Part shown: positions 284 through 25,013 of the stretch, one piece after another | How positions within the stretch are numbered: the stretch's first letter is position 1 | Layout of the letters: each line of letters begins with the position of its first letter | Virus record (IMG/VR): IMGVR_UViG_3300034118_001588 | Coordinates: 1 to 25,369 of that record | Direction: 5' to 3' (one strand) | DNA: 25,369 nucleotides | DNA from: a virus | The notes under the pieces: model-generated | The model's input: only the letters and a program-made list of their open reading frames with translations | Told to the model about the DNA's origin: nothing | Databases searched by the model: none | Program-made: the position numbers and the translations under genes

Positions 284-3007
284 CTAGCTCAGGCGATAGG
301 TCACAAACGTGTTGGCAGCCGTGCGTCGTGAAGCAAAGCGACCAGAGGTGCCAGTAACAACAGAGCCAGAGCCGACGATGGTGTGAGCAGTGCCAGCAAG
401 TACGCGTACCAGGCTAAGACCTGTGTTGATGACGCTCCACTCAAATGTGAAGTTGTCATAGGTGCCATTAAAACCAGCTTGAGTGTCGGTGCCAGTGGGC
501 AGCGTCATGTCGGTTGCTAGTGCCGACGTGCTAGTGATAATGCCGGTTTTGAGGTTGGCAACAGTTAATGTTGCAGTGGCGTTGACAGCAGCGGGGGCAG
601 GTTGGTCGTAAGCTTTAACGCCGTCGTTGGTAATACGAAAACGCTCCGTCGGGCTGCTCGCTCCGTCGGCGGTAGTGAAGAACACTAAACGACCCGGCAT
701 ATCATTAGCGCCGGGGGTGCCGTCTACTTCGGCTTTTATTGATGCAGCAATTGTATTAAGGTCTATGCCATCATCTGCAACAAAAAGAATATTAGAAAGT
801 ACATCATTATTCTGCGCTATCGTCCTAGACGCAATAGAACCTCTTGTCTGGCCTAAGACTAAGTTTGAACCTGCTGTAGTTGCGTTTGTGCGAATAATTG
901 ACTGCCAGGCTACTCCTGCATCTCCGACTAGCTGAACATGAGGAGTTGATCCGCCTGCAGCAAGCGCACTAGACGTGCCAACTAAGAGCCTGCCGGAGCT
1001 GTCGATGCGGGCGCGTTCTGAACCGCCGCTCTTGAAAGCAATATTGCCGTTAGCATCCGACCCCGTGTACTCAAACTCTGCTGTCTTGGTGGAATCGGTA
1101 AGATTTACGCGAAGAATAGGGATATTTGTTCCACCTGCTCTCTGAAGTCGGAATATCTCGCCATCAGCGCTTTGTTGCACATGCAATAGCGACTGAGGCC
1201 CAGTAGTGCCAATCCCTACGTTGCCTGCCGATGTAATTCTCATCCGCTCCGTCGGACTTGATGCACCATCAAGAGTGGTAGAAAAGACCAGCCTGCCCGG
1301 CATGTCGTTAGCGCCGGGGGTGCCGTCTACTTCACAAGTAATCAGCCCAGCCTCGACAAATTCGGAGCCATCATTTCCTTGATATGAAACGCCGCCCAAT
1401 ATGTCATTAGCGGCAACAACAACATTCGTACCAAGGGCTCCACGGCTCCTGGCTAAAAATAAATTTGGATAGGGATTAGCGCTTGAGGCACTACCATTAG
1501 CAATGAGCGCAGCAGAGCTAAGAGAAGTAGTTGTACTTTCGACCTGTAACTGAGCGCTAATTGTGGAATTTCTAAAGTTTGTACGCGCATTAGACGTGCC
1601 AACTAAGAGCCTGCCGGAGCTGTCGATGCGGGCGTGCTCACTAGGGCCATTTCTAAACACATGAGCGCCCAGAGCAGAGCTAAAGTTCTGATTTTTGTAA
1701 ATTAAATCAAACGTAGTCGTATCTTTTATGATTGAACCAGTCCGGGCATTTGCGCTATTTGTACCGCCTATCGTAATACCAACAAATTCGCCAGAAGCCG
1801 AGTCGTTTCCGTTGCTTACGTGCAACGCATGGCCAGGGCTCGTAGTGCCAATCCCTACGTTGCCTCCTGAGGGGTTTAATGCGATTGGCCGAAACGCGGT
1901 CCCTGCTGTAATTGATTGAATCCAGGCGTAATTATTTGTTGTTTCAAAACCAAAATTCAAACGATTGGCAGTGTTTGTGCTGCCGCGAATTGCAAACTGA
2001 CCTCCGGCGTTTTGTTCAAACGTTGCGTCGCCTTGGACATGTAAAAGATTTACAGGACTCGTAGTGCCAATCCCTACTTTCCCTGTGTTATCAATAACGA
2101 CTCGCGTGTCCGTCCCGGTCTGTAGATACAGGGCACGGGCAGTGCCACCAAGACTTTGAGAGCGTACATAACCATATCTAGCCGTGGCGCCTGTAGATGC
2201 TGTTGTAGAATTACCTCCTATATAAACACCTGGTTGAGATGTACCGGGACCCCTGAATAAGGCGTAATTCTCTTCAGTGTCTGTCGTACTTGCTCCGACA
2301 ACTTCAATTGGAGTTGCAGGGCTACTAGTCCCCAGACCTAAGCGGCCATCAGAAGTAAACCGAGCACGCTCGGAACCATCAACACGAATGTCAATATATG
2401 ATGCGCTAGCAACATTGCCTTCATCAGCTCGAAGGGAAAGCGCTCCGTTGTTGTTAAGTATTTCGGCGTAAGAGTTGTCTGTTGTGTCGCGCAACCTTGC
2501 GGTAGGCAAAGCAGAAGTTATTTCAAAATTAGAGCTTGGCGAACCTCCAATGCCTACTTGTCCAGTTGCATTAATAAACAACCTCCCAGTGCCACTAGTC
2601 GAGATGGCTACTTGATCTGCACCGGGGGAGTATAGTCCAGAATTTGGGTCAGAAACAAAACTAATCGATGGATTTGCTGCCGTACCTGACGCAAATACAC
2701 CCGATGTAATGGTGTGAGTACCACCGCTGATGTTAGTGAAGTTACCGCTAGTAAAGTTTGCAGTAGTGCCCGTAACAGTAACCCCTGTTAATGAAGCAAA
2801 AGTTCCACTGGTAAACTGAGCGGTTGTTCCAGTAACGGTAACACCTGAAATTGTTTGACCCCGTACGGTATTACCAGAGATAGTTCCGGTTACTGTTACG
2901 TTTCCTGTAAAGGTAGGATTCTGAACTAAACCAGAAATTGCAACGCTTTTATCAACACCATCGCTAGTAAAGGTAATAGTGTCACACTTTAAAATTCCGT
3001 AAGCCAT
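284..3007 (-). CDS. Large repetitive tail-fibre-like protein, 907 aa
   Basis: Probable receptor-binding or side fibre. Residues 1 to about 110 carry short Thr/Gly/Val repeats such as SGVTVTGTTAQFTSG, also found in the neighbouring 596-aa protein. The middle is built of the fibre signature NVGIGTTSP-x-LLHV, alternating with ERARIDSSGRLLVGTS and DGTPGANDMPGRLVF blocks. In other phage fibres these blocks form beta-rich trimeric shafts. The C-terminal ~100 residues (from ATLTVANLKTG to TFVTYRLS) lack the blocks and probably form the tip domain. I see no Peptidase_S74 chaperone motif at the end. Start is ATG with a weak purine-rich leader; the gene ends in tandem TAG TAG. It lies 36 bases after the 596-aa fibre gene, so they are probably co-transcribed. 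The block pattern supports a fibre role; the receptor is unknown. Confidence 0.8.
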   Translation of the reverse strand: MAYGILKCDTITFTSDGVDKSVAISGLVQNPTFTGNVTVTGTISGNTVRGQTISGVTVTGTTAQFTSGTFASLTGVTVTGTTANFTSGNFTNISGGTHTITSGVFASGTAANPSISFVSDPNSGLYSPGADQVAISTSGTGRLFINATGQVGIGGSPSSNFEITSALPTARLRDTTDNSYAEILNNNGALSLRADEGNVASASYIDIRVDGSERARFTSDGRLGLGTSSPATPIEVVGASTTDTEENYALFRGPGTSQPGVYIGGNSTTASTGATARYGYVRSQSLGGTARALYLQTGTDTRVVIDNTGKVGIGTTSPVNLLHVQGDATFEQNAGGQFAIRGSTNTANRLNFGFETTNNYAWIQSITAGTAFRPIALNPSGGNVGIGTTSPGHALHVSNGNDSASGEFVGITIGGTNSANARTGSIIKDTTTFDLIYKNQNFSSALGAHVFRNGPSEHARIDSSGRLLVGTSNARTNFRNSTISAQLQVESTTTSLSSAALIANGSASSANPYPNLFLARSRGALGTNVVVAANDILGGVSYQGNDGSEFVEAGLITCEVDGTPGANDMPGRLVFSTTLDGASSPTERMRITSAGNVGIGTTGPQSLLHVQQSADGEIFRLQRAGGTNIPILRVNLTDSTKTAEFEYTGSDANGNIAFKSGGSERARIDSSGRLLVGTSSALAAGGSTPHVQLVGDAGVAWQSIIRTNATTAGSNLVLGQTRGSIASRTIAQNNDVLSNILFVADDGIDLNTIAASIKAEVDGTPGANDMPGRLVFFTTADGASSPTERFRITNDGVKAYDQPAPAAVNATATLTVANLKTGIITSTSALATDMTLPTGTDTQAGFNGTYDNFTFEWSVINTGLSLVRVLAGTAHTIVGSGSVVTGTSGRFASRRTAANTFVTYRLS
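642..730. repeat. Intragenic repeat A, copy 1 (partner 1245-1333)
   Basis: This 89-base segment of the 907-aa fibre gene matches 1245-1333 in length and partly in sequence; the last 26 bases (ttagcgccgg...tctacttc) are identical. It encodes the block DGTPGANDMPGRLVF followed by DGASSPTER. The near-identity suggests recent duplication or gene conversion inside the fibre. Confidence 0.7.
970..1013. repeat. 44-bp perfect direct repeat, copy 1 (partner 1591-1634)
   Basis: These 44 bases are identical to 1591-1634. They encode the ARIDSSGRLLVGTS block of the fibre on the minus strand. A perfect 44-base match within one gene points to recent duplication or ongoing homogenisation. Confidence 0.85.
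1245..1333. repeat. Intragenic repeat A, copy 2 (partner 642-730)
   Basis: Second copy of the fibre block described at 642-730, encoding DGTPGANDMPGRLVF plus DGASSPTERM. The divergence is concentrated in its first half. Confidence 0.7.
1591..1634. repeat. 44-bp perfect direct repeat, copy 2 (partner 970-1013)
   Basis: Second copy of the 44-base identical block in the 907-aa fibre gene. The flanking sequences differ, so only the ARIDSSGRLLVGTS block is duplicated. Confidence 0.85.
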
Positions 3008-3043
3008 TTTGTTGTCTCTTTTTGTTTATTTTAGCCGAGAAAA

Positions 3044-4834
3044 TTACGGAAGAATGATTAGTGGACCTTGGATTACAAACCCACTTGCGCTACCGGAAAC
3101 AACGCCAGAACACACAATGGCAGGCGTTGCGCCAGATGGCGTGGTTATCCTAAGCGTGCTCCCAGTGATGTTTGTAAACGTACCGGTTGCACCAGTAACT
3201 GTTACACCAGAAACAGTTGTAAATGTTGCAGTAACACCTGTGGTTGTTGTTCCTGTTAATGAAATAAATGTCCCAGTTGTTGCGGAGGTTGTGACTGCTT
3301 GAACCGTAGTACCTGTAATTGTTGTGCCACTAAGGGTACCGGTAATCTGAACACCAGAAGCAAAAAAACCAGAACCAAGGACATTAAGGTCACCTGATAC
3401 TGTCGTGTTAGTAAAAGCAAGGTTAATTGCCGCAAGTGTTTGGAAAATACCTGTCGTTGCATTGACTGTTGTTCCTGTGTACGTCGTACCACTAAGATTG
3501 GTAAAGACGCCAGACGTACCTTGGATCGTATTACCAGTGATTGTGGCCCCAGAAACACTGGTGGTGAAAACGCCTGCGATACCGGTCAGATTCGTGAAAC
3601 TGCCAGTGTCTCCTGTGACAAGCAGACCGGAAACATGTGTGGTAAATGTACCGGTTGCTCCCGTCAGGGAAGTAAAAGTACCAATGTTACCGGTAACGGT
3701 TGCGCCTGAAACTTGAGTGGTAAATGTCCCGGACGTACTCGTCAGGTTTGTAAAAACACCTGAGGCACCGGTAATTGTGGTGGCCGATAACTGACTAGTA
3801 AAGACACCGGATACACCAGAAACAATCGTTGCGGCAACTGTGTTACCAGTGACTGTTGCACCAGAAACTCTGGTGAATGTACCGGATACACCAGTCAGTG
3901 TTGTGTATTGTCCGGTGTCACCAGTAATGACTGCACCCGAAAGGAACTGTGTAAAAACACCAGAGATACCAGAGACGTTACCAAAGGCACCCGTATTGCC
4001 TGTTACGGTTGCACCAGAAACCCTGGTTGTGAAAGTACCGGAAACACCTGTGAGATTAGCAGTTTGTACCGTATTTCCGGTAATGGTTGCGCCAGATAAC
4101 TGTGTTGTGAAAACACCCGATACACCAGTGACACTTGTGAATTGTGCCGTAGATCCAGTTACTGTTGTTCCAGATAATGTTCCTGTGACCTGAACACCGT
4201 TACTAAATTGAGCAGTGCCAGTAACCGTCAGTCCGCTAGCAACGGAAAGATTACCGTTTACATCCAGTACAGGCGTACCAAGGACCTGGAACGTACCTGT
4301 GGTTGCTGCGACGGTAGTACCAGTGATTGTGACACCGCTCAGATTTGTGAATACACCAGATGGCGAGCGGACAATACCACCTGTAATCGTGGCACCTGAT
4401 AGGTTTTGATAAACGCCAGACGTAAAAGCACTTGTCGTACCTGTTGCGGTCGTAACCGTGGCAGTGACTGCGTTGACATTGGTGCCTTGTACGTTGGTTC
4501 CGGTAATGGTCAGACCACTGACGGTACCACTAATAACCGCATTATTTTGAACTACAATGCCACTGAATGTACTAGATCCAGAAGCTGTAATTGAATTGAA
4601 TGAGCTAGTGCCAGAAACCGTTAGGTTCCCTGAGATTGTGACGTTACCACTGAAGGTTGCGCCACTGGCAGGTGCGTAATACTCATTAAGATATTCTTTG
4701 AATTGAGTAAAGGTAATTTTTTTGTTGCGTAAAGTGGGGTCAACCTCGAAGACATGGACGAGCGTTAGCAGGTCCTGTTCATCGATCTCGCCCCCACTGA
4801 TGGCAGGGAATTCACTGATCCTACGGTTTGACAC
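3044..4834 (-). CDS. Tandem-repeat tail-fibre-like protein, 596 aa
   Basis: Probable virion fibre. The first ~60 residues are a non-repetitive head (RISEFPAISGGEIDEQDLL, then NKKITFTQFKEYL). In cyanophage fibre proteins such a head is likely to attach the fibre to the virion (family knowledge plus inference). Nearly all the rest is a tandem array of about 26 residues with the consensus VSGATVTGNTGxFxNLTG and SGTFTT, giving a DNA period near 78 bases. It is almost purely Thr/Ser/Gly/Val, as in beta-helical shafts. The C-terminus (SGSASGFVIQGPLIILP) is short, with no obvious globular tip. The start is GTG at 4832-4834, chosen because the head begins MSNRRISEF. It lies just upstream of the 907-aa fibre, which shares the repeat style; the two may assemble end to end. 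Confidence 0.75.
   Translation of the reverse strand: MSNRRISEFPAISGGEIDEQDLLTLVHVFEVDPTLRNKKITFTQFKEYLNEYYAPASGATFSGNVTISGNLTVSGTSSFNSITASGSSTFSGIVVQNNAVISGTVSGLTITGTNVQGTNVNAVTATVTTATGTTSAFTSGVYQNLSGATITGGIVRSPSGVFTNLSGVTITGTTVAATTGTFQVLGTPVLDVNGNLSVASGLTVTGTAQFSNGVQVTGTLSGTTVTGSTAQFTSVTGVSGVFTTQLSGATITGNTVQTANLTGVSGTFTTRVSGATVTGNTGAFGNVSGISGVFTQFLSGAVITGDTGQYTTLTGVSGTFTRVSGATVTGNTVAATIVSGVSGVFTSQLSATTITGASGVFTNLTSTSGTFTTQVSGATVTGNIGTFTSLTGATGTFTTHVSGLLVTGDTGSFTNLTGIAGVFTTSVSGATITGNTIQGTSGVFTNLSGTTYTGTTVNATTGIFQTLAAINLAFTNTTVSGDLNVLGSGFFASGVQITGTLSGTTITGTTVQAVTTSATTGTFISLTGTTTTGVTATFTTVSGVTVTGATGTFTNITGSTLRITTPSGATPAIVCSGVVSGSASGFVIQGPLIILP
3480..4420. repeat. Tandem coding repeats of about 78 bp in the fibre gene
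   Basis: Within the 596-aa fibre gene the unit VSGATVTGNT...SGVFTT recurs about ten times with a period near 26 residues. Units are diverged at DNA level but keep the same Gly/Thr positions. The boundaries given are approximate. Such arrays commonly change copy number by slippage or recombination. Confidence 0.6.
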
Positions 4835-9009: not shown

Positions 9010-9669
9010 CTAGCCGTTAAATATCAGATCGACGGACTCATCGGCAAAGTCCTGCCATCGGTCGTCATCAATACGAAAACTGTTGGCAAACTCAGACAGG
9101 ATGTAAGGATTGATACGTTCCTCCAGAGCACGGATTGCGCGTACTTCGTGGGGAGCAGCACTGTAATTACGGAAGGCGGTCAACAAGACTTCTGTTGATG
9201 CCCAAGGGCTGGTGTCTACGTCACGAAGGAAAAGACCCATCTCTTCTCTCCTGCGTTCCAGGAGACCACCAACAACCTTATGGTTTTGGTCAAAGATCCA
9301 GCGGCTCATTTCCGTGGTGGCACTAGCAAAATCCTCTGCTTCCACATGATCAATGATGTGGCTGTACAAGAAGGACTCCCAACCAACGGAATGAATGAAC
9401 GAGACTAGAGCCTGGCGCATGTTGTCGTCAAGACCAAGGTTCTGCCGCTGGAGCTGGGACTCAATGACGCTGACCTCATGGAAGAGGTACGCAAGAGCTT
9501 TCTCCTGGCTGCAACGCTGACCTTGCTTGACGGGGGAACCATCGGGATAGAACTGGGTTCCAAACCCGATGGTGTATGGCTCTGCGCCAGTGTGCGGATC
9601 TGCGTATGCCTTTTCGTTAAACCCTTCGTATTTACGAATTAGGTTAATAGCACGCGAAAAATCCGACAT
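9010..9669 (-). CDS. T4-type lysozyme (GH24 endolysin), 219 aa
   Basis: Hydrolyses the beta-1,4 bond between N-acetylmuramic acid and N-acetylglucosamine in peptidoglycan, probably for lysis. The N-terminal active-site region is clear: LIRKYEGFNEKAYADP then PYTIGFGT, giving the T4-lysozyme Glu-Asp-Thr triad as Glu15, Asp24 and Thr33. NMRQALVSFIHSVGW and the RRREEMGLFL stretch are also typical of GH24. About 65 extra C-terminal residues of unknown role follow the ~150-residue domain. I see no signal peptide, so export would need a holin or similar. ATG 9669 is chosen because it immediately precedes the domain; an in-frame TTG at 9693 would add eight residues. There is no Shine-Dalgarno sequence at normal spacing, and a hairpin directly abuts the ATG. 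Confidence 0.9.
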   Translation of the reverse strand: MSDFSRAINLIRKYEGFNEKAYADPHTGAEPYTIGFGTQFYPDGSPVKQGQRCSQEKALAYLFHEVSVIESQLQRQNLGLDDNMRQALVSFIHSVGWESFLYSHIIDHVEAEDFASATTEMSRWIFDQNHKVVGGLLERRREEMGLFLRDVDTSPWASTEVLLTAFRNYSAAPHEVRAIRALEERINPYILSEFANSFRIDDDRWQDFADESVDLIFNG

Positions 9670-9691
9670 GGAGATAACTATTGTTATCCCC
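9670..9691 (-). promoter_or_regulatory. Hairpin abutting the lysozyme start codon
   Basis: On the minus strand GGGGATAAC, loop AATA, then GTTATCTCC ends directly at the ATG. It pairs over 9 bp with one G-U wobble. It would hide the initiation region of the lysozyme message and could delay its translation, or act as an operator at DNA level. Confidence 0.5.
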
Positions 9692-9705
9692 AATATACAT
9701 AATTT

Positions 9706-10142: not shown

Positions 10143-12365
10143 CTAACCAAAGAGAGATCCAAAGCCACCGCCTGATCCCATATTAAAATAGGAAGGCGCA
10201 CCTTCATCTTCTTCATCTGGGAAGTAATCAAAGAAACGTGAACGTGTGGGCGTATATGTTTCTTTTTTCTTTGTTGAATCATCTGCCATCATTTTATCAA
10301 GAGAGCCAATAGCAGCAAAAGGATCTGAAAAATCTGGCATGCTAAACCCCAGGAGGTTCTGCGCTCCTTTCGCAGTACTTGCTTTACCTACATCCGATGC
10401 CGAAAGATTTTTATCTTCTTCAGTTGCATCAGGGAAGAAATCTGTGTAAAACTCTGATTCACTTCCGCTATAACCTGCTTTCTGAAAGATATTAAACAGG
10501 GCACTGCCACCTGTAGGTGCTTCAACTTTCTCGTCTCCCTCTCTCTGGATATAACCAAAACCTAGTTTTTCTTGCGTGGGCTTGATCCGTTGTTCATTCA
10601 GTTCTTTAATACGTTCTCGAATATCAATAGCCTGGTTGGTGCGCAAGATACCCATCAAACCTTCTTTTACGTCTTCCGTTGGATCTGTATTTTCATCGAT
10701 ACCTAAATTATTGAGTTGTTTTTTTAAGTCCGCAGGTAGATCTGCAACATTTAAAGCATCAACAAATTCTTTTGCTTTTTGTTCTGCTGTAACAAAATCA
10801 AGAAATACAGGATTGCCAAACTCTGTTTTTTTATTTTGCAAAGCTTTAGCCAGATCCCCCTGGATAAAGTTGGCAAGATCTTGCCTGGTATAGGTATCGG
10901 CAACCGGATCATAGTATTTGTCCTTACCAATTACTGAGTAATGTAAACGGGCAAAGTCATTTTTATTCTCTAGATCAATGCCATATTCATAAGCAAGTTG
11001 TGACCATGGCTTACCATCTTTTACTGCGGCATCACTATTGCGTGCGTCCCACGCGCTCTGGACCGATTGTTTTTGCTGTTCGTAAAGTGGCTTCTTGTTT
11101 GTAACATCAGTACCACTCAGTAACTCTGGATTCCAATAAAAGTTAGGATCAAATTCTCTTTGAAGGGTTTGACCGCCTAACTGATTGATAAATGCTTGTG
11201 CTTGTTGCTTTGAAAAATCCTTAAGTGCACTAGATGCTAACTGCGTTTGCAAAACGTTTTGCTCATCTTCTTTGACGTCCATATAGCTGATGAATTCAGA
11301 AATGGACTTTGAGTTATCAAAACGAGGCTTTAAATAGTCCTGCACAAAAGACTGTGCAAATGCCTTGTCAACTTCATATGCTTCTTTTGCTTCTCCCGGT
11401 GTCGTGATCTGCGACATCTCTTCATATCGCTTGGAGAGAGTCTCGTCAAACCACTTTTGCCAATTGTATTGAACAGATAAGCCAATTCCAAGACTCTTGT
11501 CTAGGCTTTTTGAAAGGCCTTTATCAAGATCAGTCTTGGAACCAAACCCAAGAAATCCCCCGGCACCCATGTCACCAAGAATCGCATTCTTGATGTCCTG
11601 TTTCATGTTATTAATATTGGGCACACCCATGCCCTGAAAAAGATCAGACATCTGCTGATCTTTCAGTGCTTTTGCATATTCATCCATTGTCTGCTTCAAG
11701 GCGTCTGCTGACAAAGCGCCAAAGACTTGTTCCCCTTGCTTGTCAACAATGTCTTGTGTTGCAAGCTCAGCTAATGACTGAGGTTTATCTTTTGATGTGC
11801 CCAGAAGCGTCTCTCTGAGTACTTGACGTTCTTGATTTGTAGGAGCACGAAGGGTTTCTTGGTATTGCTCCAAGGTTCTTGGCTTGCCTAATTTACCGCT
11901 CGGTGCGCCAACAAAGGTGTAATCGGCGTGAAGGAAAGAATCAAGATCCGAATACTTTTTTGTTACATCAATGTCTGGAATTTTTGTGCCGGCAAAAGAA
12001 ACAGCTTTCGAGGCTTCATTCCACTTTGCAACTGAATCAGGTACCTGTCTCGAATAAAACTTTGCATCAAACTTATTTATATCAACCCCTTGTTTACTGG
12101 AATCCCAGGGCTTCAATCCTGTTGCCTTGACGTAAAAGTCTTCAATTTCTTTTACGGTTACGTCATCAATTGAATCTCTTGCGTTGCTGTTATTTTTTTG
12201 AAGCGCTTGATCAAGCGACTCCATCAAACTTTTGTAGTTTTCACCAGGGCCTTGGATAGCGTTTAAACGTTGCGCAATTGTATCTGCTGCTTCTACTACG
12301 TCAGCGGTTGCGTCACTTGGTAGTACAGGCCGCAAAGAACCATTAACAACATTAAAACGAATCAT
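10143..12365 (-). CDS. Large probable virion protein, 740 aa
   Basis: The family is not recognised. It is a long, mostly helical, charged protein without Cys clusters, signal peptide or membrane helix, rich in Asp, Lys, Gln and Ala. The C-terminal ~60 residues are acidic then Gly-rich (PDEEDEGAPSYFNMGSGGGF, ending GSLFG). Its size, position in the late minus-strand block and composition fit an internal or ejected virion protein, or a structural component of the tail or core; this is inference. Its ATG overlaps the TGA of the upstream HNH gene (ATGA at 12362-12365), so the two are translationally coupled. There is no enzyme motif I can name. Confidence 0.6.
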   Translation of the reverse strand: MIRFNVVNGSLRPVLPSDATADVVEAADTIAQRLNAIQGPGENYKSLMESLDQALQKNNSNARDSIDDVTVKEIEDFYVKATGLKPWDSSKQGVDINKFDAKFYSRQVPDSVAKWNEASKAVSFAGTKIPDIDVTKKYSDLDSFLHADYTFVGAPSGKLGKPRTLEQYQETLRAPTNQERQVLRETLLGTSKDKPQSLAELATQDIVDKQGEQVFGALSADALKQTMDEYAKALKDQQMSDLFQGMGVPNINNMKQDIKNAILGDMGAGGFLGFGSKTDLDKGLSKSLDKSLGIGLSVQYNWQKWFDETLSKRYEEMSQITTPGEAKEAYEVDKAFAQSFVQDYLKPRFDNSKSISEFISYMDVKEDEQNVLQTQLASSALKDFSKQQAQAFINQLGGQTLQREFDPNFYWNPELLSGTDVTNKKPLYEQQKQSVQSAWDARNSDAAVKDGKPWSQLAYEYGIDLENKNDFARLHYSVIGKDKYYDPVADTYTRQDLANFIQGDLAKALQNKKTEFGNPVFLDFVTAEQKAKEFVDALNVADLPADLKKQLNNLGIDENTDPTEDVKEGLMGILRTNQAIDIRERIKELNEQRIKPTQEKLGFGYIQREGDEKVEAPTGGSALFNIFQKAGYSGSESEFYTDFFPDATEEDKNLSASDVGKASTAKGAQNLLGFSMPDFSDPFAAIGSLDKMMADDSTKKKETYTPTRSRFFDYFPDEEDEGAPSYFNMGSGGGFGSLFG

Positions 12366-15512: not shown

Positions 15513-16103
15513 ATGGCACAAACAACTTTTCAGTGTGCTTGTTGTGGTAAGTTTTACGAACGCCAAGGAAATACCGCAGCTTGGCATCGAAAGCGTTTGC
15601 GAGATAGGGGGTATGTCTATTGCTCAAAGAACTGCGCTTCTTTTAAACATGGTGGAAACAGAGATAAAACACCAGAATACGGTTCATGGTGTGCAATGAA
15701 AAGCCGCTGCAATTGTATTGGTACAACTCATTACGAACGCTATGGTGGACGTGGCATTAGCTATGATCCGGCTTGGGAAGACTTCACGGTATTTCTAGCG
15801 GACATGGGCGAGAAACCAGATCCCAAAACGGAATTAGAAAGAATCAACAATAACAAAAACTATTGCAAAGAAAACTGTCGTTGGGCTACAAGAAAAGAAC
15901 AAACGCGTAATCGAGGAGGGAAACGTGCAACACGGCTTTACACCTTCGAGGGTAAAACAATGTGTATTGCAGACTGGGCGAAAGAAGTTGGTATTACACC
16001 ACAGGCAATGCAAAAACGGCTTAGCAACGAATGGCCCCTTGATAAAGCGTTCTCAAAAGAACGTCATGACGGCAAGGGAGGAACTCACGTAAAACCTAAA
16101 TAA
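15513..16103 (+). CDS. HNH-type homing endonuclease, 196 aa
   Basis: Belongs to the phage HNH family with the signature SWCAMKSRCN, YGGRGISYDPAWEDFTVFL, LERINNNKNYCKENCRWATR and KEQTRNRG. The N-terminal ~55 residues hold a Cys-rich zinc-finger-like element (QCACCGKFY, then YVYCSKNC). The C-terminal ~40 residues form a DNA-binding helix module typical of these enzymes (YTFEGKTMCIADWAKEVGIT, then KRLSNEWPLDKAFS). It would make a site-specific double-strand cut and spread by homing. It is a lone plus-strand gene between minus-strand structural genes, with its own terminator, which fits an inserted mobile gene. No interrupted host gene is seen around it, so it is free-standing. No good Shine-Dalgarno sequence precedes the ATG. 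Confidence 0.85.
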   Translation: MAQTTFQCACCGKFYERQGNTAAWHRKRLRDRGYVYCSKNCASFKHGGNRDKTPEYGSWCAMKSRCNCIGTTHYERYGGRGISYDPAWEDFTVFLADMGEKPDPKTELERINNNKNYCKENCRWATRKEQTRNRGGKRATRLYTFEGKTMCIADWAKEVGITPQAMQKRLSNEWPLDKAFSKERHDGKGGTHVKPK

Positions 16104-16169: not shown

Positions 16170-16874
16170 TTAACCATATGGATTCATGTTAAGCAACATT
16201 TGAAATGGATTCATGGCGAGAGGTTGTGCAGGCGTCAACAAAAGCTCCCCTACCAACTGTTCTTTAAACAATTCACCAAGAGATTTATCTGTTGGTTTAC
16301 TGCCCTCCATTGCCGATAAGAAGCCTTGGAGGAAACCGGCAGAAGATGTTTCCTGCCCAGTAGCTGCTCCTTGTGCTTGTTCGCCGGAGAGAGGTTGCCT
16401 TCCTTGTTGATAGGTTTTCTGTAATTCAGAATAACTTTTAACGGGTTGACCGTAATAACTCTTGCCTTCTTTCGTAGGAAGTGACGCCCACTCAGGTGCA
16501 AGAGCAGCAACAAACTCAGGTGTTAAACCTTGTTTCTGTAAATAAGAAAGGCCGCCAAGACCCATGGTACGTTGGCGTGCAAGATCAAGTGCAGCAATGT
16601 CTTGCTCAACCGGACCAAAAGAGCCTAAGCCAAGTTTCTTCTGTTGTTGTTGCCAGGTTGGTGTAAGGAATTGATAAGCACCGGCAGCGGTACTTCTTCC
16701 TTTCATTACTTTGTCTGGGTGTTGCTTGAGATCTGGCGCAAGCGATCCACCAAACATGACTCGATATGAGTCTTGACCACCACGTTCTGTTCCTTCCGCA
16801 AAACGCAACATGCGCAAAAGACCTTGCGCTTCCGGCGTTTGTCTAAACTTTTCGTAAAAGGAACGATCTGCCAT
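16170..16874 (-). CDS. Lambda R-like lytic transglycosylase (GH104), 234 aa
   Basis: Resembles lambda endolysin R (GH104), which cleaves peptidoglycan glycan strands. Residues about 10-165 align in order: LLRMLRFAEGT with Glu27 as the catalytic Glu, a YRVMFGG strand, HPDKV, STAAGAYQFLTPTWQQQQKK, LGLGSFGPVEQDIAALDLA and APEWASLPT with YYGQ. A Gln-rich linker follows, then a ~55-residue C-terminal module (FLQGFL ... KEQLVGELL ... PAQ ... NPFQMLL ... NPY). The same module ends the M23-like protein at 18433. Being in the late structural block with a special tail, it is more likely a virion-associated cell-wall enzyme than the lysis endolysin (inference). ATG 16874 has an AGGAG 9 bases upstream. 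Confidence 0.85.
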   Translation of the reverse strand: MADRSFYEKFRQTPEAQGLLRMLRFAEGTERGGQDSYRVMFGGSLAPDLKQHPDKVMKGRSTAAGAYQFLTPTWQQQQKKLGLGSFGPVEQDIAALDLARQRTMGLGGLSYLQKQGLTPEFVAALAPEWASLPTKEGKSYYGQPVKSYSELQKTYQQGRQPLSGEQAQGAATGQETSSAGFLQGFLSAMEGSKPTDKSLGELFKEQLVGELLLTPAQPLAMNPFQMLLNMNPYG

Positions 16875-16878
16875 GGTG

Positions 16879-16995
16879 TTATGCTCCTACCCAATTTGAA
16901 CTTGCTCTAAGACCAGGGATAAAAACAGCTTGTAATGCAACAACAAGACTGAGCTTGGTCGTGAGGCGTTTAACAAAATTAGGGCAGAGGATCAT
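16879..16995 (-). CDS. Possible small ORF, 38 aa
   Basis: ATG 16993-16995 to TAA 16879-16881 reads MILCPNFVKRLTTKLSLVVA and ends NWVGA, a weakly hydrophobic peptide. Its last codons contain the AGGAG used by the transglycosylase gene, so its translation would be coupled to that gene if real. It has no Shine-Dalgarno sequence of its own and no recognised family. It could be a leader peptide or chance. Confidence 0.25.
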   Translation of the reverse strand: MILCPNFVKRLTTKLSLVVALQAVFIPGLRASSNWVGA

Positions 16996-17080
16996 TGGTC
17001 TAAAGCAACAACACTGGCCCCCGTGAATCAAAGATTCGTGTCCAGTAGGCTGGGCTTACATGCTAAGCAATGCCAAAGTT
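16996..17080. other. Non-coding gap with an imperfect inverted repeat
   Basis: This is the rest of the 206-base gap between the transglycosylase and the 283-aa gene. ACTGG (17013-17017) pairs with CCAGT (17042-17046), enclosing CGTGAATC-AAA-GATTCGTG (17022-17040). The inner stem pairs fully only as plus-strand RNA, where it needs two G-U pairs; on the transcribed minus strand two pairs are lost. No gene, tRNA or clear terminator is seen. Confidence 0.35.
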
Positions 17081-17932
17081 TTATTTCTTAACTAACTTAA
17101 GAAGCTCTTCAAACTTAGCAGCATCCATCACGTTAGGCTGACCAAATACAGATGTTGTAGCTGTACCAAGGGGAGCTGCGCCTAAACCTGACAATTCAGA
17201 TGTTGGTTTAATCGTGGAGTAAGGAGGTGGCGTCTGTGCTCCAGGGGCAAGGTTAGAGGTTACACCAAAGCCTGTGGAGTAACCAGTGCCTGTCGGTAAA
17301 CCAGGAACTTGTGTCGGGAAGCCTTGCGGTGTTGGCACAAGTTGTTCGGTAATACCAAAGCCTTGTCCTGCACGCGCCATGTTACCGGCAAGAGTGCCTT
17401 GAATTGCTTCGTAGCCAGACTGTCCGGCTTTGACTTTGGCAGCAAGGGTGGGATTGGCTTTTGCCCACATCTGCATGCCGATATCTTCTGCCGACTGAAC
17501 CTGTTCAGGCGTAGCACCGGGGGCAACAGCTTTTAGACGTGCCGCTTCGTAACGCTGAAGCTCAGGATCTTGAGCAGTAAGCTGAGCAACACGAGATGCC
17601 TCGGATTGGTATGCACGTTCAGCCGCAGCTTGTTGGCCAGGAAAACCTGCACCTGAGCGAAAACTTTCTGCTGCAGCCCCTGCACGAAGCTCTTCTTCTT
17701 TGTAACCTGTGCCGTAATCACGCAAGCTTCCGGTAGGTTTAGTAGATGTAGCTCTACCGGAAGTACCGCGACGGCCTCCCATGCCCCCACCACCTGGATT
17801 GTAAGGAGCTGCAGGCTGATTAAAAAATTTACCGGCAGCATTTACTGCTCCCGGAATGTTAGGGAGTATACTCAATCCGCTAAGTGCCCATGGAGCAATG
17901 CGCCCAATATTAGAAACAACAGGTCCAATCAT
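17081..17932 (-). CDS. Gly/Ala/Pro-rich probable virion protein, 283 aa
   Basis: The family is not recognised. The N-terminal ~37 residues are hydrophobic and glycine-bearing (MIGPVVSNIGRIAPWALSGL), able to insert in or touch a membrane. A Gly/Arg-rich linker (GGGGMGGRRGTSGRA) and an Ala-rich helical centre (AAAESFRSGAGFPGQQAAAE) follow, then a Pro/Gly/Thr-rich region and a short C-terminal helix (KFEELLKLVKK). Such composition is common in internal or ejected virion proteins (inference). ATG 17932 overlaps the TGA of the upstream gene (TGATG), which decides this start over an in-frame TTG at 17941. It lies between the connector-like gene and the transglycosylase. Confidence 0.6.
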   Translation of the reverse strand: MIGPVVSNIGRIAPWALSGLSILPNIPGAVNAAGKFFNQPAAPYNPGGGGMGGRRGTSGRATSTKPTGSLRDYGTGYKEEELRAGAAAESFRSGAGFPGQQAAAERAYQSEASRVAQLTAQDPELQRYEAARLKAVAPGATPEQVQSAEDIGMQMWAKANPTLAAKVKAGQSGYEAIQGTLAGNMARAGQGFGITEQLVPTPQGFPTQVPGLPTGTGYSTGFGVTSNLAPGAQTPPPYSTIKPTSELSGLGAAPLGTATTSVFGQPNVMDAAKFEELLKLVKK

Positions 17933-18393
17933 CACCGCCAAACCTCATGTAAATAAATGCGTGATCCCACAGCCGTATCGGCAGGGCCAGGTAAAGCCTG
18001 GATGAATTCAGCACCAGAGCGTTCGTAACGATATCTGGCCTGGAACGGATCCTTATAGTTGGGAACGTAAAGGATACCGGCTAAACGGTTGGTTTCGTAG
18101 AGATAAATCTCATCCCAAACCTTAAGCGCCTCTTTGGCATTACTGGATCTGATCGTACGATCAACGTCACCAACAATGTTTTCGATGCGCGTAGAGGGTG
18201 AAGTAGCAACTTCAGTCCTCTTTTCAGCAGTGTCGCAACGTCCAATTTGGATAGCAATTTTGTCATAGAAGTATGAATCCGGAACGGTGTTCATAGTTTC
18301 TTCAAGTCGGGCATAGTCACCCGCCGGCACGGAAACCGTGAAGTAGCCTAGGTGATACCTGACTCTACTCTTGTCAAAATCGCTGAGCTGCAC
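17932..18393 (-). CDS. Probable head-tail connector or structural protein, 153 aa
   Basis: A compact soluble α/β protein beginning MQLSDFDKSRVRYHLGYFTV, with a helical middle (ARLEETMNTVPDSYFYDKIA), a second half with SNAKEALKVWDEIYLYETNR, and a GSRIYLHEVWR end. Its size, and its place after the capsid genes in late-gene order, suggest a head-completion or neck protein. The start resembles phage proteins annotated that way (recalled only). The GTG start at 18391-18393 has a GGAA element upstream. Its TGA overlaps the next ATG (TGATG). Confidence 0.5.
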   Translation of the reverse strand: MQLSDFDKSRVRYHLGYFTVSVPAGDYARLEETMNTVPDSYFYDKIAIQIGRCDTAEKRTEVATSPSTRIENIVGDVDRTIRSSNAKEALKVWDEIYLYETNRLAGILYVPNYKDPFQARYRYERSGAEFIQALPGPADTAVGSRIYLHEVWR

Positions 18394-18432
18394 AGCTTAT
18401 TTCCGTATGTTCTCAATTATAAATGCAGTGAA

Positions 18433-19098
18433 TTAAACGGCGTATGGATTAGGAAGGCTGGCTAGTAACTCCATGGGATTGATTGTTTGAGCGGGTTGTA
18501 ATAACTGCTGGACAAGTTGACGTTTCATTTTGGTCGCACCGCTTTCTTTCGGTTCACCTGCAAAACCAGTGCCAAGTAAGTAACCCATTAAAAACTCTTT
18601 AGGATCTGTGCCAGCACCGGAGGGATCTTGTACCTTTCCACCCGTAAGATCAGAAGCTTCTCCTAGCGTCTTCATGTGGCCGTAGCCAAGCTCATATTTT
18701 CCATCTCCTGTTGTCCAGGTGGCTAAATTACCGTAACCACCTTCATTGGGACGAGGTTTAAATTTAACATCTCCTTCTACAAAAATCTCAGTCCCTTCTG
18801 CACCAGCATAATCTCTACCCCTGTGGTATGTGCTAGCACCAGCAATGCCTGTATTTCTGGGGCCAAAACCAGAAGTCATTGTAAGGCCGGCTGCTGGATT
18901 TAGTTGCAACCCACCTTTTTCATCGGCAATATACTTAGGGACTCGATTTGGTCCGACCCTAACACCTAAAAATTTACTGCGATGGATGCCAGGGTCTTCG
19001 TATTGATTGGTCTGAAGGTTTAATACATAGCCATGCAAATGTGGACCGGAAGAAATTCCAGTAGATCCAAGCTGCCCTAGTCGCGTGATCTTTGCCAT
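18433..19098 (-). CDS. Circularly permuted M23-type peptidase, 221 aa
   Basis: Probable zinc peptidase that cuts peptidoglycan cross-bridges. All five active-site residues of the LytM/M23 family are present but in rotated order. The family's last motif, GPHLH (His20, His22), is at the N-terminus in GQLGSTGISSGPHLHGYV. The first motif HxxxD follows (His92, Asp96 in TYHRGRDYAG), preceded by the usual SGFGPRN. The middle motif comes last (His141 in ELGYGHMKTLG). An in-frame TAG nine bases upstream of the ATG rules out a longer canonical N-terminus. Residues 168-221 are a module shared with the transglycosylase at 16170 (FLMGYL ... KRQLVQQLL.PAQ ... NPMELL ... NPY). A terminator lies just upstream. 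The fold is inferred from motifs. Confidence 0.75.
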   Translation of the reverse strand: MAKITRLGQLGSTGISSGPHLHGYVLNLQTNQYEDPGIHRSKFLGVRVGPNRVPKYIADEKGGLQLNPAAGLTMTSGFGPRNTGIAGASTYHRGRDYAGAEGTEIFVEGDVKFKPRPNEGGYGNLATWTTGDGKYELGYGHMKTLGEASDLTGGKVQDPSGAGTDPKEFLMGYLLGTGFAGEPKESGATKMKRQLVQQLLQPAQTINPMELLASLPNPYAV

Positions 19099-22276: not shown

Positions 22277-23266
22277 TCACTCCATCACAAACAGTTTGTT
22301 TGCAACAACTTGAGGCTGAGCTTGGTTCAGAAGACGCCAGGCATTCTCCGGATTCACATCCATTTGTTGCTTGAAGCTGCCCCAGAAGTTCTCAGGTTGC
22401 TGAGGAGCGGAAGCAGCAGGGGGTGCAGGGAATTGGCCCATATAGTTCTGGATCGATTCCGTAGGATAACCACGGGTTTCCAGTTGGGACTCATCCTCAT
22501 ACACAGGGTACGGACCTTCAGGACCAAAGAACTTCAGCGTGTAATCGCTGAGTACATCAGGATTGGTCAGGATTTCGTTGTAAGCCAGGTTCTCTTGGTG
22601 CTCGGCAACAGAGAAATCGGCATAACGATGAAGGACCTCTTGTGCTTTGCTGCCCCAGGCAACAGCACTGTCAAGCATGGCTTCCAGTTGGAGGCCATAG
22701 TTATTGAGAACAGCAGGTGCGTCCCAACCGTAAGCATTAATTACGTTTCTGCTTTCCGGGCTTAGTTGCAGGTAATCCGCGATCGCGTTTTGCACCTCGC
22801 TCGTCGGGTTGAGGCCGTCGAGTGTTGAGTAAATTGTCGAGGAAATTTGGGAAGAGCTGGGCGAGTAAGCCTGGTTGGGTGACCAGGTCTGCGGAGCCGA
22901 TTGTTGCGTAGCTGGGTTGCTGTACTGCTGACCGTAGTTGGCCGGTGCGTACTGGGTCGGAATCTGTGATGGTTGACCCTGGAACGGGGATTGAACTGGA
23001 CTGCTCAGCAGATTCACCACCTTGTTGAACGCCGATTCCCACGGATTGCTGTTCGCTTCCGCTTGGTATTGGGGGGCGTACTGAGTAGGGGCTGATTGGT
23101 AATTGGGGGCCGCCTGAGGCACCGCTTGGGGGTAGCTGGTACCCACCTGATACGCCACTGGAGCTTGGGGTACTGGAGCCTGGGCTGGTACCACGTAGCT
23201 GCTTGGAGCCACCGCCACTGGTGCTTGGCTCGTCTGTGGGATCGATTGGACGGTAGCGTCCTGCAT
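22277..23266 (-). CDS. Probable capsid scaffolding protein, 329 aa
   Basis: Placed between portal and capsid genes, where tailed phages keep the scaffold. Residues 1 to about 145 are Pro/Gln/Ala/Ser/Tyr-rich and disordered (YVVPAQAPVPQAPVAYQ, YQSAPTQYAPQYQ). Residues about 150-260 are helical (SEVQNAIADYLQLSPESRNV, then WGSKAQEVLHRYADFSVAEH), and the C-terminus (NPENAWRLLNQAQPQVVANK) could contact the shell. A helical scaffold with a disordered arm fits. The start is firmly set by AAGGAG seven bases before ATG 23266. The first 530 bases overlap the portal gene in another frame on the same strand. Confidence 0.65.
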   Translation of the reverse strand: MQDATVQSIPQTSQAPVAVAPSSYVVPAQAPVPQAPVAYQVGTSYPQAVPQAAPNYQSAPTQYAPQYQAEANSNPWESAFNKVVNLLSSPVQSPFQGQPSQIPTQYAPANYGQQYSNPATQQSAPQTWSPNQAYSPSSSQISSTIYSTLDGLNPTSEVQNAIADYLQLSPESRNVINAYGWDAPAVLNNYGLQLEAMLDSAVAWGSKAQEVLHRYADFSVAEHQENLAYNEILTNPDVLSDYTLKFFGPEGPYPVYEDESQLETRGYPTESIQNYMGQFPAPPAASAPQQPENFWGSFKQQMDVNPENAWRLLNQAQPQVVANKLFVME

Positions 23267-25013
23267 AACTCATCTCCTTTTGTAGAGCTTCTAATGTTCG
23301 ATACAGATATGGAGTTAAATCCAATCTTGGATCCGCAGCCATCGGAAGATCCGGTGCTTGCGGGTGGGGAGTCTGCATCATTCCCCCCACTAAGCGAGCG
23401 AATTGAGAGTATGCACCCTGTAATTCGTTCACCATCCTGAAAGGGAACCCAGATAACATCTCGGCCCTTTCCTCATCCGTCTTAGACGGGAAGAGGTATT
23501 TCAGTGCTTCAATGCTATCAACACCTAACTCCTGGAGGTTTCGTACCACGATGGAGTTGTTGAGGATGTCTTGGGTGGAGTCCTCATAAACAGGACCCAT
23601 CCAACGCCACAAAATAGTTAAATCACCGTCCGGAATAAGACCAATAACCTTGGGTGGAATCTGTTGGGTCTCCACACAAGCCATCATAAGTTGTTTGAGT
23701 TGGTCATTGTATTGCTTCATTGCTTCTTCATATGCCATCTCTTCTTCTGGGGAAGCACCGTCAGGTAGATCCACGGGCTTTTCTAATCCTGCTGCCATCG
23801 CAAGCGTCGTCTTGAAGAGTTGTTCTTCCTGGTAAATAATCAACTCAAGACAACGACAGATGCCATGTGTGTAAATAGCATTTGCTTTCTTCTTGGATGT
23901 AGCAGCTACACGACCAAACAATGATTTGTACTCAGTTGCAGTCACGCCTGCAGAGATAGACAGTTCATCAACACCACCAAGTGCTGTACGGATCTCTTCT
24001 CGATACTGACGCGCAAATGCGTTTTGGTCACCTGTAATTGCATCGGGGACAATGTAACCAACACGGTCGTTTGGTTCCAGGTTTGCGATGACTCTTGGTA
24101 CACGGATCTGACCATCAGCACCACGGCTGACAGGATCTGCTTTGAACGTAGAGCGACTCAAGGCAGCAGGACTCGTGAAGCCAGAGTTTGCTGCAATAGA
24201 AGGTCGCTGAACGCTCATGTCCCCACCTGCTTCCATCAGGTCTGTCTTGGGACGTGACGAAAGCAGTGTTGGGTTACCAAAGAAAGTGATGTTCTTGCGC
24301 ATGGTGCGCATCAATTCATCATGCGTGCAAATGTGATTAGCGACTGCATCAAACTCACCAGAGCCTTCATTTGAAAAGCCTTGAGTGTTGTTGATGATCT
24401 CAACGCAAGGAATAAAGCCAAGACTATTTTTAAGCGTTTTGGTATTACCTGTTAACGCATAGGTTGGCATGTCAAAATTCAGCTCCGAATCGGAGTGCGT
24501 CTCTTCAATCTCTTTTGGTTTAATTGACAATCGGATATAACGCTTAGCACCGGGATTGTATGTGCTTTGCGATCCAGTGATATTGACTGTGTTGATTTGA
24601 TCGCCAAAGCCGTTGCCACGGCGCACCTTGTAGCTGTAGATGATTACGACTTCGTCAAGCTCACCGTCAACGTTGTAATAGGCACGATATTCATGTTCAC
24701 GAAAGTAATAAAGTCTATAGCTCTGCTTGGTAGGACGAATGTAAAAAAGTCCTTTACCATCACACAAAAAGTATTCCCAGATGGAATCCAAACGGGTATC
24801 CATCTTGTTGTACTTGAGTACCCTGTCGATAAAGTCTTTGCGCTGAGCGCCAAAGTTATCTTGCCCTGGAAAGAACTCAACTCCTTGGCGAATACCAAAG
24901 AGTTTCATCTGTGCAATATGGGACGCAACAATACCCGTATCTACAACAATGTCACTGTTTTTATCCAGGTAAGCATTGATGATTTCGTGGAGTCGGGCTT
25001 TAGCGTCAGCCAT
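22737..25013 (-). CDS. Portal protein, 758 aa, with C-terminus overprinting scaffold
   Basis: Forms the ring at the head vertex through which DNA is packaged. The first ~580 residues have portal-like features: a helical N-terminus (ARLHEIINAYLDKNSDIVVD), a wing-like beta region (YYFREHEYRAYYNVDGELDE), and a long helical stem/crown region (FARQYREEIRTALGGVDELS, VAATSKKKANAIYTHGICRC). Its place before the scaffold and capsid genes supports this. Residues ~583-758 are Ser/Gly/Pro/Gln-rich and disordered, ending in a basic tail (ERGAKRDRGLPATKPGKQKR); they lie in the region that also encodes the scaffold N-terminus. Portals of related size are usually nearer 550-600 aa, so the tail is an unusual extension. 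ATG 25013 has AAGG six bases upstream. Confidence 0.75.
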   Translation of the reverse strand: MADAKARLHEIINAYLDKNSDIVVDTGIVASHIAQMKLFGIRQGVEFFPGQDNFGAQRKDFIDRVLKYNKMDTRLDSIWEYFLCDGKGLFYIRPTKQSYRLYYFREHEYRAYYNVDGELDEVVIIYSYKVRRGNGFGDQINTVNITGSQSTYNPGAKRYIRLSIKPKEIEETHSDSELNFDMPTYALTGNTKTLKNSLGFIPCVEIINNTQGFSNEGSGEFDAVANHICTHDELMRTMRKNITFFGNPTLLSSRPKTDLMEAGGDMSVQRPSIAANSGFTSPAALSRSTFKADPVSRGADGQIRVPRVIANLEPNDRVGYIVPDAITGDQNAFARQYREEIRTALGGVDELSISAGVTATEYKSLFGRVAATSKKKANAIYTHGICRCLELIIYQEEQLFKTTLAMAAGLEKPVDLPDGASPEEEMAYEEAMKQYNDQLKQLMMACVETQQIPPKVIGLIPDGDLTILWRWMGPVYEDSTQDILNNSIVVRNLQELGVDSIEALKYLFPSKTDEERAEMLSGFPFRMVNELQGAYSQFARLVGGMMQTPHPQAPDLPMAADPRLDLTPYLYRTLEALQKEMSYAGRYRPIDPTDEPSTSGGGSKQLRGTSPGSSTPSSSGVSGGYQLPPSGASGGPQLPISPYSVRPPIPSGSEQQSVGIGVQQGGESAEQSSSIPVPGSTITDSDPVRTGQLRSAVQQPSYATIGSADLVTQPGLLAQLFPNFLDNLLNTRRPQPDERGAKRDRGLPATKPGKQKRN
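23274..23279 (-). promoter_or_regulatory. Strong Shine-Dalgarno inside the portal gene
   Basis: AAGGAG lies seven bases upstream of the scaffold ATG at 23266. It is good evidence that translation begins here, within the portal reading frame. Confidence 0.8.

Follow-up and report, generated by a model that had tools for sequence, protein, structure and literature searches.

Two exchangeable wall hydrolases of S-EIV1-like cyanophages share a genome-matched C-terminal tail

The viral record IMGVR_UViG_3300034118_001588 of IMG/VR, 25,369 nucleotides (25.4 kb) of DNA analysed at full length and called the window below, belongs to the lineage of S-EIV1-like cyanophages, a widespread but little studied family of viruses infecting cyanobacteria. 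Two of its genes, termed X and M, code for cell-wall hydrolases with unrelated catalytic domains and similar C-terminal tails. In related genomes the catalytic parts of both genes have been replaced while the tails are retained, and the tails of M and X are matched to each other within a genome. We propose that the tail is a genome-matched docking tag, seating two exchangeable hydrolases on a common phage partner and probably bringing them into the virion for use at entry; we assign this explanation, the best we found, a probability of roughly 0.6.

The tail of genes X and M

The two genes and their parts are located in the window as follows (aa, amino acids; pLDDT, predicted local distance difference test).

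16170..16874, minus strand: gene X, 234 aa, lambda-R-like (GH104-type) glycosidase with C-terminal tail (phrog_90, PDB, Foldseek)
16383..16874, minus strand: exchangeable catalytic part of X, codons 1-164 (DNA identity breaks off at the start codon and returns at codon ~165)
16173..16352, minus strand: X tail, residues 175-234 (profile match to M tails; predicted helices 179-190, 199-212 and 223-228)
18433..19098, minus strand: gene M, 221 aa, circularly permuted M23 peptidase with C-terminal tail (PF01551 and permutation tests)
18655..19098, minus strand: exchangeable catalytic part of M, residues 1-148 (DNA break points; model mostly above 90 pLDDT per block)
18436..18609, minus strand: M tail, residues 164-221 (profile match from X tails; predicted helices 166-175, 187-200 and 208-214)

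A preliminary description of the window had noticed a similar C-terminal module on X and M, attached to unrelated catalytic domains of lambda R-like and permuted M23 type. Both open reading frames (ORFs) and the residues quoted for them are as first noted, the module is real with a length of about 58 residues, and the two catalytic identities proved correct in tests with phrog_90, 1am7 and PF01551. Smith-Waterman alignment of the M tail with the X tail scores 60 (best of 20,000 shuffles: 54), and BLASTP of the same pair gives E 2e-5 with 35% identity. When full-length X and M are compared, the observed score is reached by 6 of 5,000 shuffles; pairwise shuffle tests alone were thus insufficient and profiles were used. 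With a hidden Markov model (HMM) built from X tails, M tails are hit at E 5e-8 to 3e-6, and the M-tail HMM finds X tails at E 1e-4, so that the profile search suggested in the preliminary description places the similarity far above chance.

The tail appears to be peculiar to these two genes. Among 7,647 six-frame ORFs, no protein besides M and X scores better than about 0.07 with the tail HMMs, and a combined tail model recognizes exactly two sites, M and X, in each of eight NPY-type records (25-81 kb). No match to the tail is present in the Pfam, PHROG, NCBIfam or PDB entries tested, tail-only tblastn against 50,697 phage records returns matches at chance level only, and tail-only scans of viral contigs recover no genes except M and X.

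AlphaFold models the catalytic domains of M and X with confidence for the most part. The two tails, mostly below 60 pLDDT, share a common order of helix, linker, helix and short helix; such low-confidence short helices suggest a binding segment instead of a folded domain. The tail is under purifying selection at the amino-acid level: the ratio of nonsynonymous to synonymous substitution rates (dN/dS) lies at 0.04-0.48 in 16 of the 17 computable comparisons, with 0.04-0.48 for the M tail and, in most comparisons, 0.13-0.46 for the X tail.

As for the catalytic parts, X matches the lambda endolysin family phrog_90 (E 2.6e-27) and the lambda lysozymes 1am7 and 3d3d of the PDB (E 1.2e-21), the latter also by Foldseek of its model. 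E27 is invariant in the X alignment, in keeping with the acidic residue expected of the lambda endolysin (GH104-type). The M23 match of M consists of two blocks whose order is permuted. Re-ordering of its sequence raises the PF01551 score from 27.9 to 35.5 bits and joins the match into a single block over positions 2-87 of 96, and profile comparison with the M23 entry 3slu of the PDB gives E 2.2e-14. The metal-site residues H20, H92, D96 and H141 are invariant and H22 nearly so (27 sequences). The HxH block is N-terminal in M, which constitutes a circular permutation in which the usual M23 motif order is not kept. A first Foldseek run with the M23 model yielded nothing significant; in a second structure comparison the M model weakly matched the M23 proteins ShyA (Z 5.3, root-mean-square deviation 2.9, 89 residues aligned) and Csd3 (Z 4.6, root-mean-square deviation 4.7, 89 residues aligned). 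With such weak or missing structural matches, the permutation is claimed on the basis of sequence.

Three further observations concern M. The GSTG...GPHLH block, normally situated at the end of the M23 domain, opens M and likewise most M genes of relatives. In S-EIV1 and in the relative L084, the second histidine of HxH is replaced by aspartate (GAHLD). Two large proteins of the PDB, named Gp16 and Internal protein (9m7n_A and 9k2v_E), match the M23 profile, hinting at M23 domains in internal virion proteins of other phages.

Exchange of catalytic domains and matching of tails

Pairs of M and X were gathered by searches with both genes and with a conserved 153-aa gene as anchor, which yielded 116 pairs, thinned to 48. 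Slot X is occupied by at least five catalytic families and slot M by about three. The former are lambda-R-like (A), SLT-like with weak matches only (B), Phage_lysozyme2 (C, E 3e-36), one that matches Hydrolase_2 weakly (D) and a fifth one (E). The latter are permuted M23 (M-I), a family whose affiliation is uncertain and which shows an H/D/HxH pattern (M-II) and one that matches no family (M-III); clustering at E<1e-5 merged M-I with M-II, so their separation rests on motifs. The function names of B, D, E, M-II and M-III are tentative.

The joints of some exchanges are visible at the DNA level. Between the window and L088, 91% identity stops at the start codon of X and resumes at 95.5% from codon ~165, with a Phage_lysozyme2 domain in between. 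In L068 the M tail of the window is kept from codon ~160 beneath an unrelated catalytic domain, and in L038 the catalytic part of M is replaced up to codon ~130, most structural genes being 97-100% identical. The reverse combination, a similar catalytic domain with a different tail, occurs in M of L057 (catalytic part 78%, tail only 28%) and in X of L084 (83% and only 29%). Homologues without the tail, which the preliminary description had named as a possible refutation of its reading, were not seen: none is present among the 53 A, 26 C, 21 B and 113 M-I genes measured, the shortest extension being 67 residues. An HNH-type ORF of 196 aa (15513-16103, plus strand) follows shortly after X on the other strand; a similar ORF is present in L089 and L057 and not in L003. 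It may help to drive the exchange of X.

About ten tail types exist in the lineage, and within a genome those of M and X correspond. In Mantel tests, whose figures, like those of the permutations below, include phylogeny and so show the matching and not its cause, distances between M tails correlate with distances between X tails at r 0.89 (27 genomes) and 0.84 (48 genomes). For the same two sets, M tails correlate with their own catalytic domains at only r 0.13 and 0.25, and the catalytic domains of M and X at r -0.08 and 0.12, i.e. their histories are nearly unrelated. The own-genome M-X tail score of 46.9 exceeds both the mean (35.6) and the maximum (42.2) of 100,000 permutations. Clusters of M and X tails correspond nearly one to one (adjusted mutual information 0.89), and no genome mixing major tail types was seen.

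At the DNA level, M and X tails of the same genome are unlike each other except in L084. As they are alike as proteins, their resemblance is kept at the protein level, and recent gene conversion between the M and X tails was rejected. L084, a possible exception, is the sole case of likeness in DNA (L084:7652-8284 and L084:10001-10696), where one tail was possibly copied recently onto the other.

Purifying selection, the lack of a predicted independent fold, the matching of M with X and retention through catalytic replacement together make a tag the best reading of the tail. The preliminary description had spoken of a swappable targeting or docking tag. Its docking or targeting role stands as the best reading; it is the enzymes that get swapped, and the tail is the fixed part, occurring in types specific to phage clades.

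Proposed docking on a phage partner and rival explanations

Three other proteins of the window enter at this point, two candidate partners and an internal control.

22737..25013, minus strand: portal-like protein, candidate partner (phrog_20475 and a weak phrog_64 portal match)
10143..12365, minus strand: 740-aa protein, possible ejection-type core protein, second candidate partner (area under the curve, AUC, 0.913; r 0.78)
9010..9693, minus strand: T4-lysozyme-like endolysin without tail (PF00959), internal control

We infer docking from the evolutionary pattern. Tail-type tracking was compared among 11 neighbouring genes, and relatedness of the portal is the best predictor of tail type (AUC 0.989, 18 of 18 nearest neighbours, r 0.81-0.86), which fits docking at the portal vertex or core. 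The 329-aa gene (AUC 0.93) and the gene of the 740-aa protein rank after it, and the genes directly beside M and X predict tail type less well (AUC 0.71-0.82). As sole partner the 740-aa protein is weakened by L074 and L068, which keep the tail type of the window together with a different 740-aa type. Across relatives this protein keeps its position and varies from about 730 to 1,200 aa, with 26-97% identity.

The ejection proteins of short-tailed phages form a stack on the portal, and a hydrolase domain is able to shift from one of these proteins to another (PMC8954989). In the mechanism that we propose, the hydrolases would be separate proteins plugged by their tails onto such a portal-stacked core. 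Each slot, M of endopeptidase type and X mostly of glycosidase type, would consist of an N-terminal catalytic domain, a flexible linker and the tail, whose two or three short helices would probably fold upon binding. Both tails would attach to a single partner encoded by the phage, probably situated at the portal vertex or in the internal core. Docking would thereby bring a strand-cutting enzyme and a peptide-cutting one into the particle, and the two would open peptidoglycan at entry. Recombination would replace catalytic domains freely, and the tail would be retained because one no longer fitting the partner of its own genome would be lost by selection. In its fullest form, to which we give even odds, this is a two-slot plug-in mount: a clade-specific docking code on two C-terminal tails would be read by one vertex or core protein, and wall-cutting enzymes would be exchanged like drill bits with assembly undisturbed.

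Several points weigh against this proposal. The X tail is moderately linked to the catalytic class of X (r 0.53 in 27 genomes, 0.48 in 48), so that tail and enzyme are not fully independent in X. Portal tracking is based on few deep clades and could result from shared descent. No docking site emerged when the portal and the 740-aa protein were scanned region by region; in the portal, residues 141-210 gave the best value (r 0.90). The location of M and X in the particle, at the portal vertex, and their function in entry are conjecture.

Four rivals, homotypic docking, wall binding, membrane action and a recombination hook, are weighed in that order. The tails of M and X might pair with each other or with themselves, which would yield a complex of two enzymes with no third partner. 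Matching would then be direct, and tails of the same genome are indeed alike and covary also with the portal taken out (partial r 0.76-0.82). Such pairing does not predict the close following of the portal clade by tail type, and M and X tails retain slot-specific forms; we consider it unlikely, although less so than the remaining three. Were the tail a domain binding host peptidoglycan or envelope, a common wall would be the reason that both enzymes, which face one host, carry it, and modular endolysins typically exchange their catalytic domains while the C-terminal module stays constant. The phage's own endolysin speaks otherwise. The T4-lysozyme-like enzyme, apparently the natural endolysin, forms one orthologous family in 15 of 16 records and is not matched by the tail profiles. 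Moreover, the tail has no known binding-domain match and no predicted folded domain. Gram-negative systems rarely possess binding domains, these are usually N-terminal, and their peptidoglycan is conserved (PMC6024856), whereas here about ten tail types occur. Wall binding, which could still involve a domain of a kind not yet described, is thus improbable in our view.

We place still less trust in a tail whose helices insert into or disturb host membranes. The helices are short and hydrophobic, and positively charged segments of some endolysins act on the outer membrane (PMC6024856), but the tails are near neutral (mean charge -0.8 for M and -0.5 for X), their hydrophobic moment exceeds that of shuffles by only 0 to 2.2 standard deviations, and membrane action requires no matching of M with X. 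Least credible of all, by a narrow step, is that the tail is conserved merely as shared DNA guiding the exchange of catalytic domains, with no function as protein. The joints do adjoin the tail, and the HNH-type ORF stands beside X in some genomes. Against this, same-genome tails are alike as proteins and not as DNA (L084 excepted), and selection acts on their amino acids; homology also runs on into downstream genes, so that foreign tails should often be met, yet no major types are mixed.

Known systems and genomic setting

Loading tags common to unrelated phage cargo are already known, as are modular wall enzymes (PMC6024856). The proposed tag resembles the capsid targeting sequence of T4 (PMC7697877) and the capsid signal of P1 DarB (PMC9024508), short tags common or transferable to unrelated cargo, which there direct it into the head. 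Here too the same tag is found on unrelated cargo, i.e. on unrelated catalytic families. The T4 tag is N-terminal, about 10 residues long and cleaved, whereas the present tail is C-terminal, about 58 residues long and restricted to two wall enzymes, and its head loading is conjectural; the natural swaps in L088, L038 and L068 are no more than suggestive of a tag sufficient to carry foreign protein into the head. In T7, the portal-stacked core of gp14, gp15 and gp16 carries a peptidoglycan hydrolase domain that is movable between proteins (PMC8954989). The T7 hydrolase forms a fusion with a large ejection protein, whereas the present proposal has two small, independent enzymes docking by their tails. 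In phi29 gp13, an M23 endopeptidase and a glycosidase domain are combined in one protein, whereas in the window each of the two activities has its own gene, with a permuted M23 fold and exchangeable catalytic parts. The M23 endopeptidase is common to both, that of gp13 being located at the tail tip and used at entry (PMC9662197). Modular endolysins with a C-terminal cell-wall-binding domain share the exchange of catalytic domains over a constant C-terminal module and differ in the three respects given above: the tail matches no known binding domain, has no predicted domain fold and is absent from the phage's own endolysin.

In the literature searched, which covered few subscription journals, we found no description of such a tail or of a pair of exchangeable slots matched genome by genome. 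Little is known about the way in which phages place entry enzymes in their particles when these are not fused to large structural proteins. Natural domain swaps with sharp joints, about ten tail types and a tail-less control enzyme make both docking and the specificity code directly testable, and a proven tag would be a means to place a chosen enzyme in a cyanophage particle.

Synechococcus phage S-EIV1 (KJ410740) is the closest cultured relative found for the window. It is listed as a freshwater podovirus (PMC9382816), and its group is found in the ocean too (PMC5332604). Its gene order is the same, its M (AHV82231) and X (AHV82234) both carry the tail, its endolysin is AHV82244, the match of the window M23 gene spans 89% of the query, and the portal, coat and several neighbour proteins are 71-87% identical; its X is Phage_lysozyme2 and not lambda-R-like, and its tails belong to a different type. 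Read in the direction of transcription, the window contains portal, 329-aa, 180-aa, coat, 267-aa, 142-aa, M, 153-aa, 286-aa, X, 263-aa, 516-aa, HNH, 740-aa and endolysin genes, where the portal is putative on weak profile matches and the coat is so named, provisionally, from sequence and position. Like virion-associated lysins, M and X possess a peptidoglycan hydrolase domain and are located among structural genes, with coat/connector genes on one side and large structural genes on the other; the endolysin gene stands separately. Two genes lie between them.

17932..18393, minus strand: 153-aa protein, phrog_29158, between M and X (85-100% identity across the lineage)
17081..17941, minus strand: 286-aa variable protein, between M and X, without tail

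The 153-aa gene is highly constant despite its position between the two most exchanged genes. Elsewhere, the coat is 95% identical and the portal 74% between L090 (S-EIV1) and L057, a sign of strong mosaicism in the head genes. Two long ORFs of 907 and 596 aa (284-4834, minus strand) contain many repeated G-x-T-x-T-G-like motifs and probably code for receptor-binding or fibre proteins.

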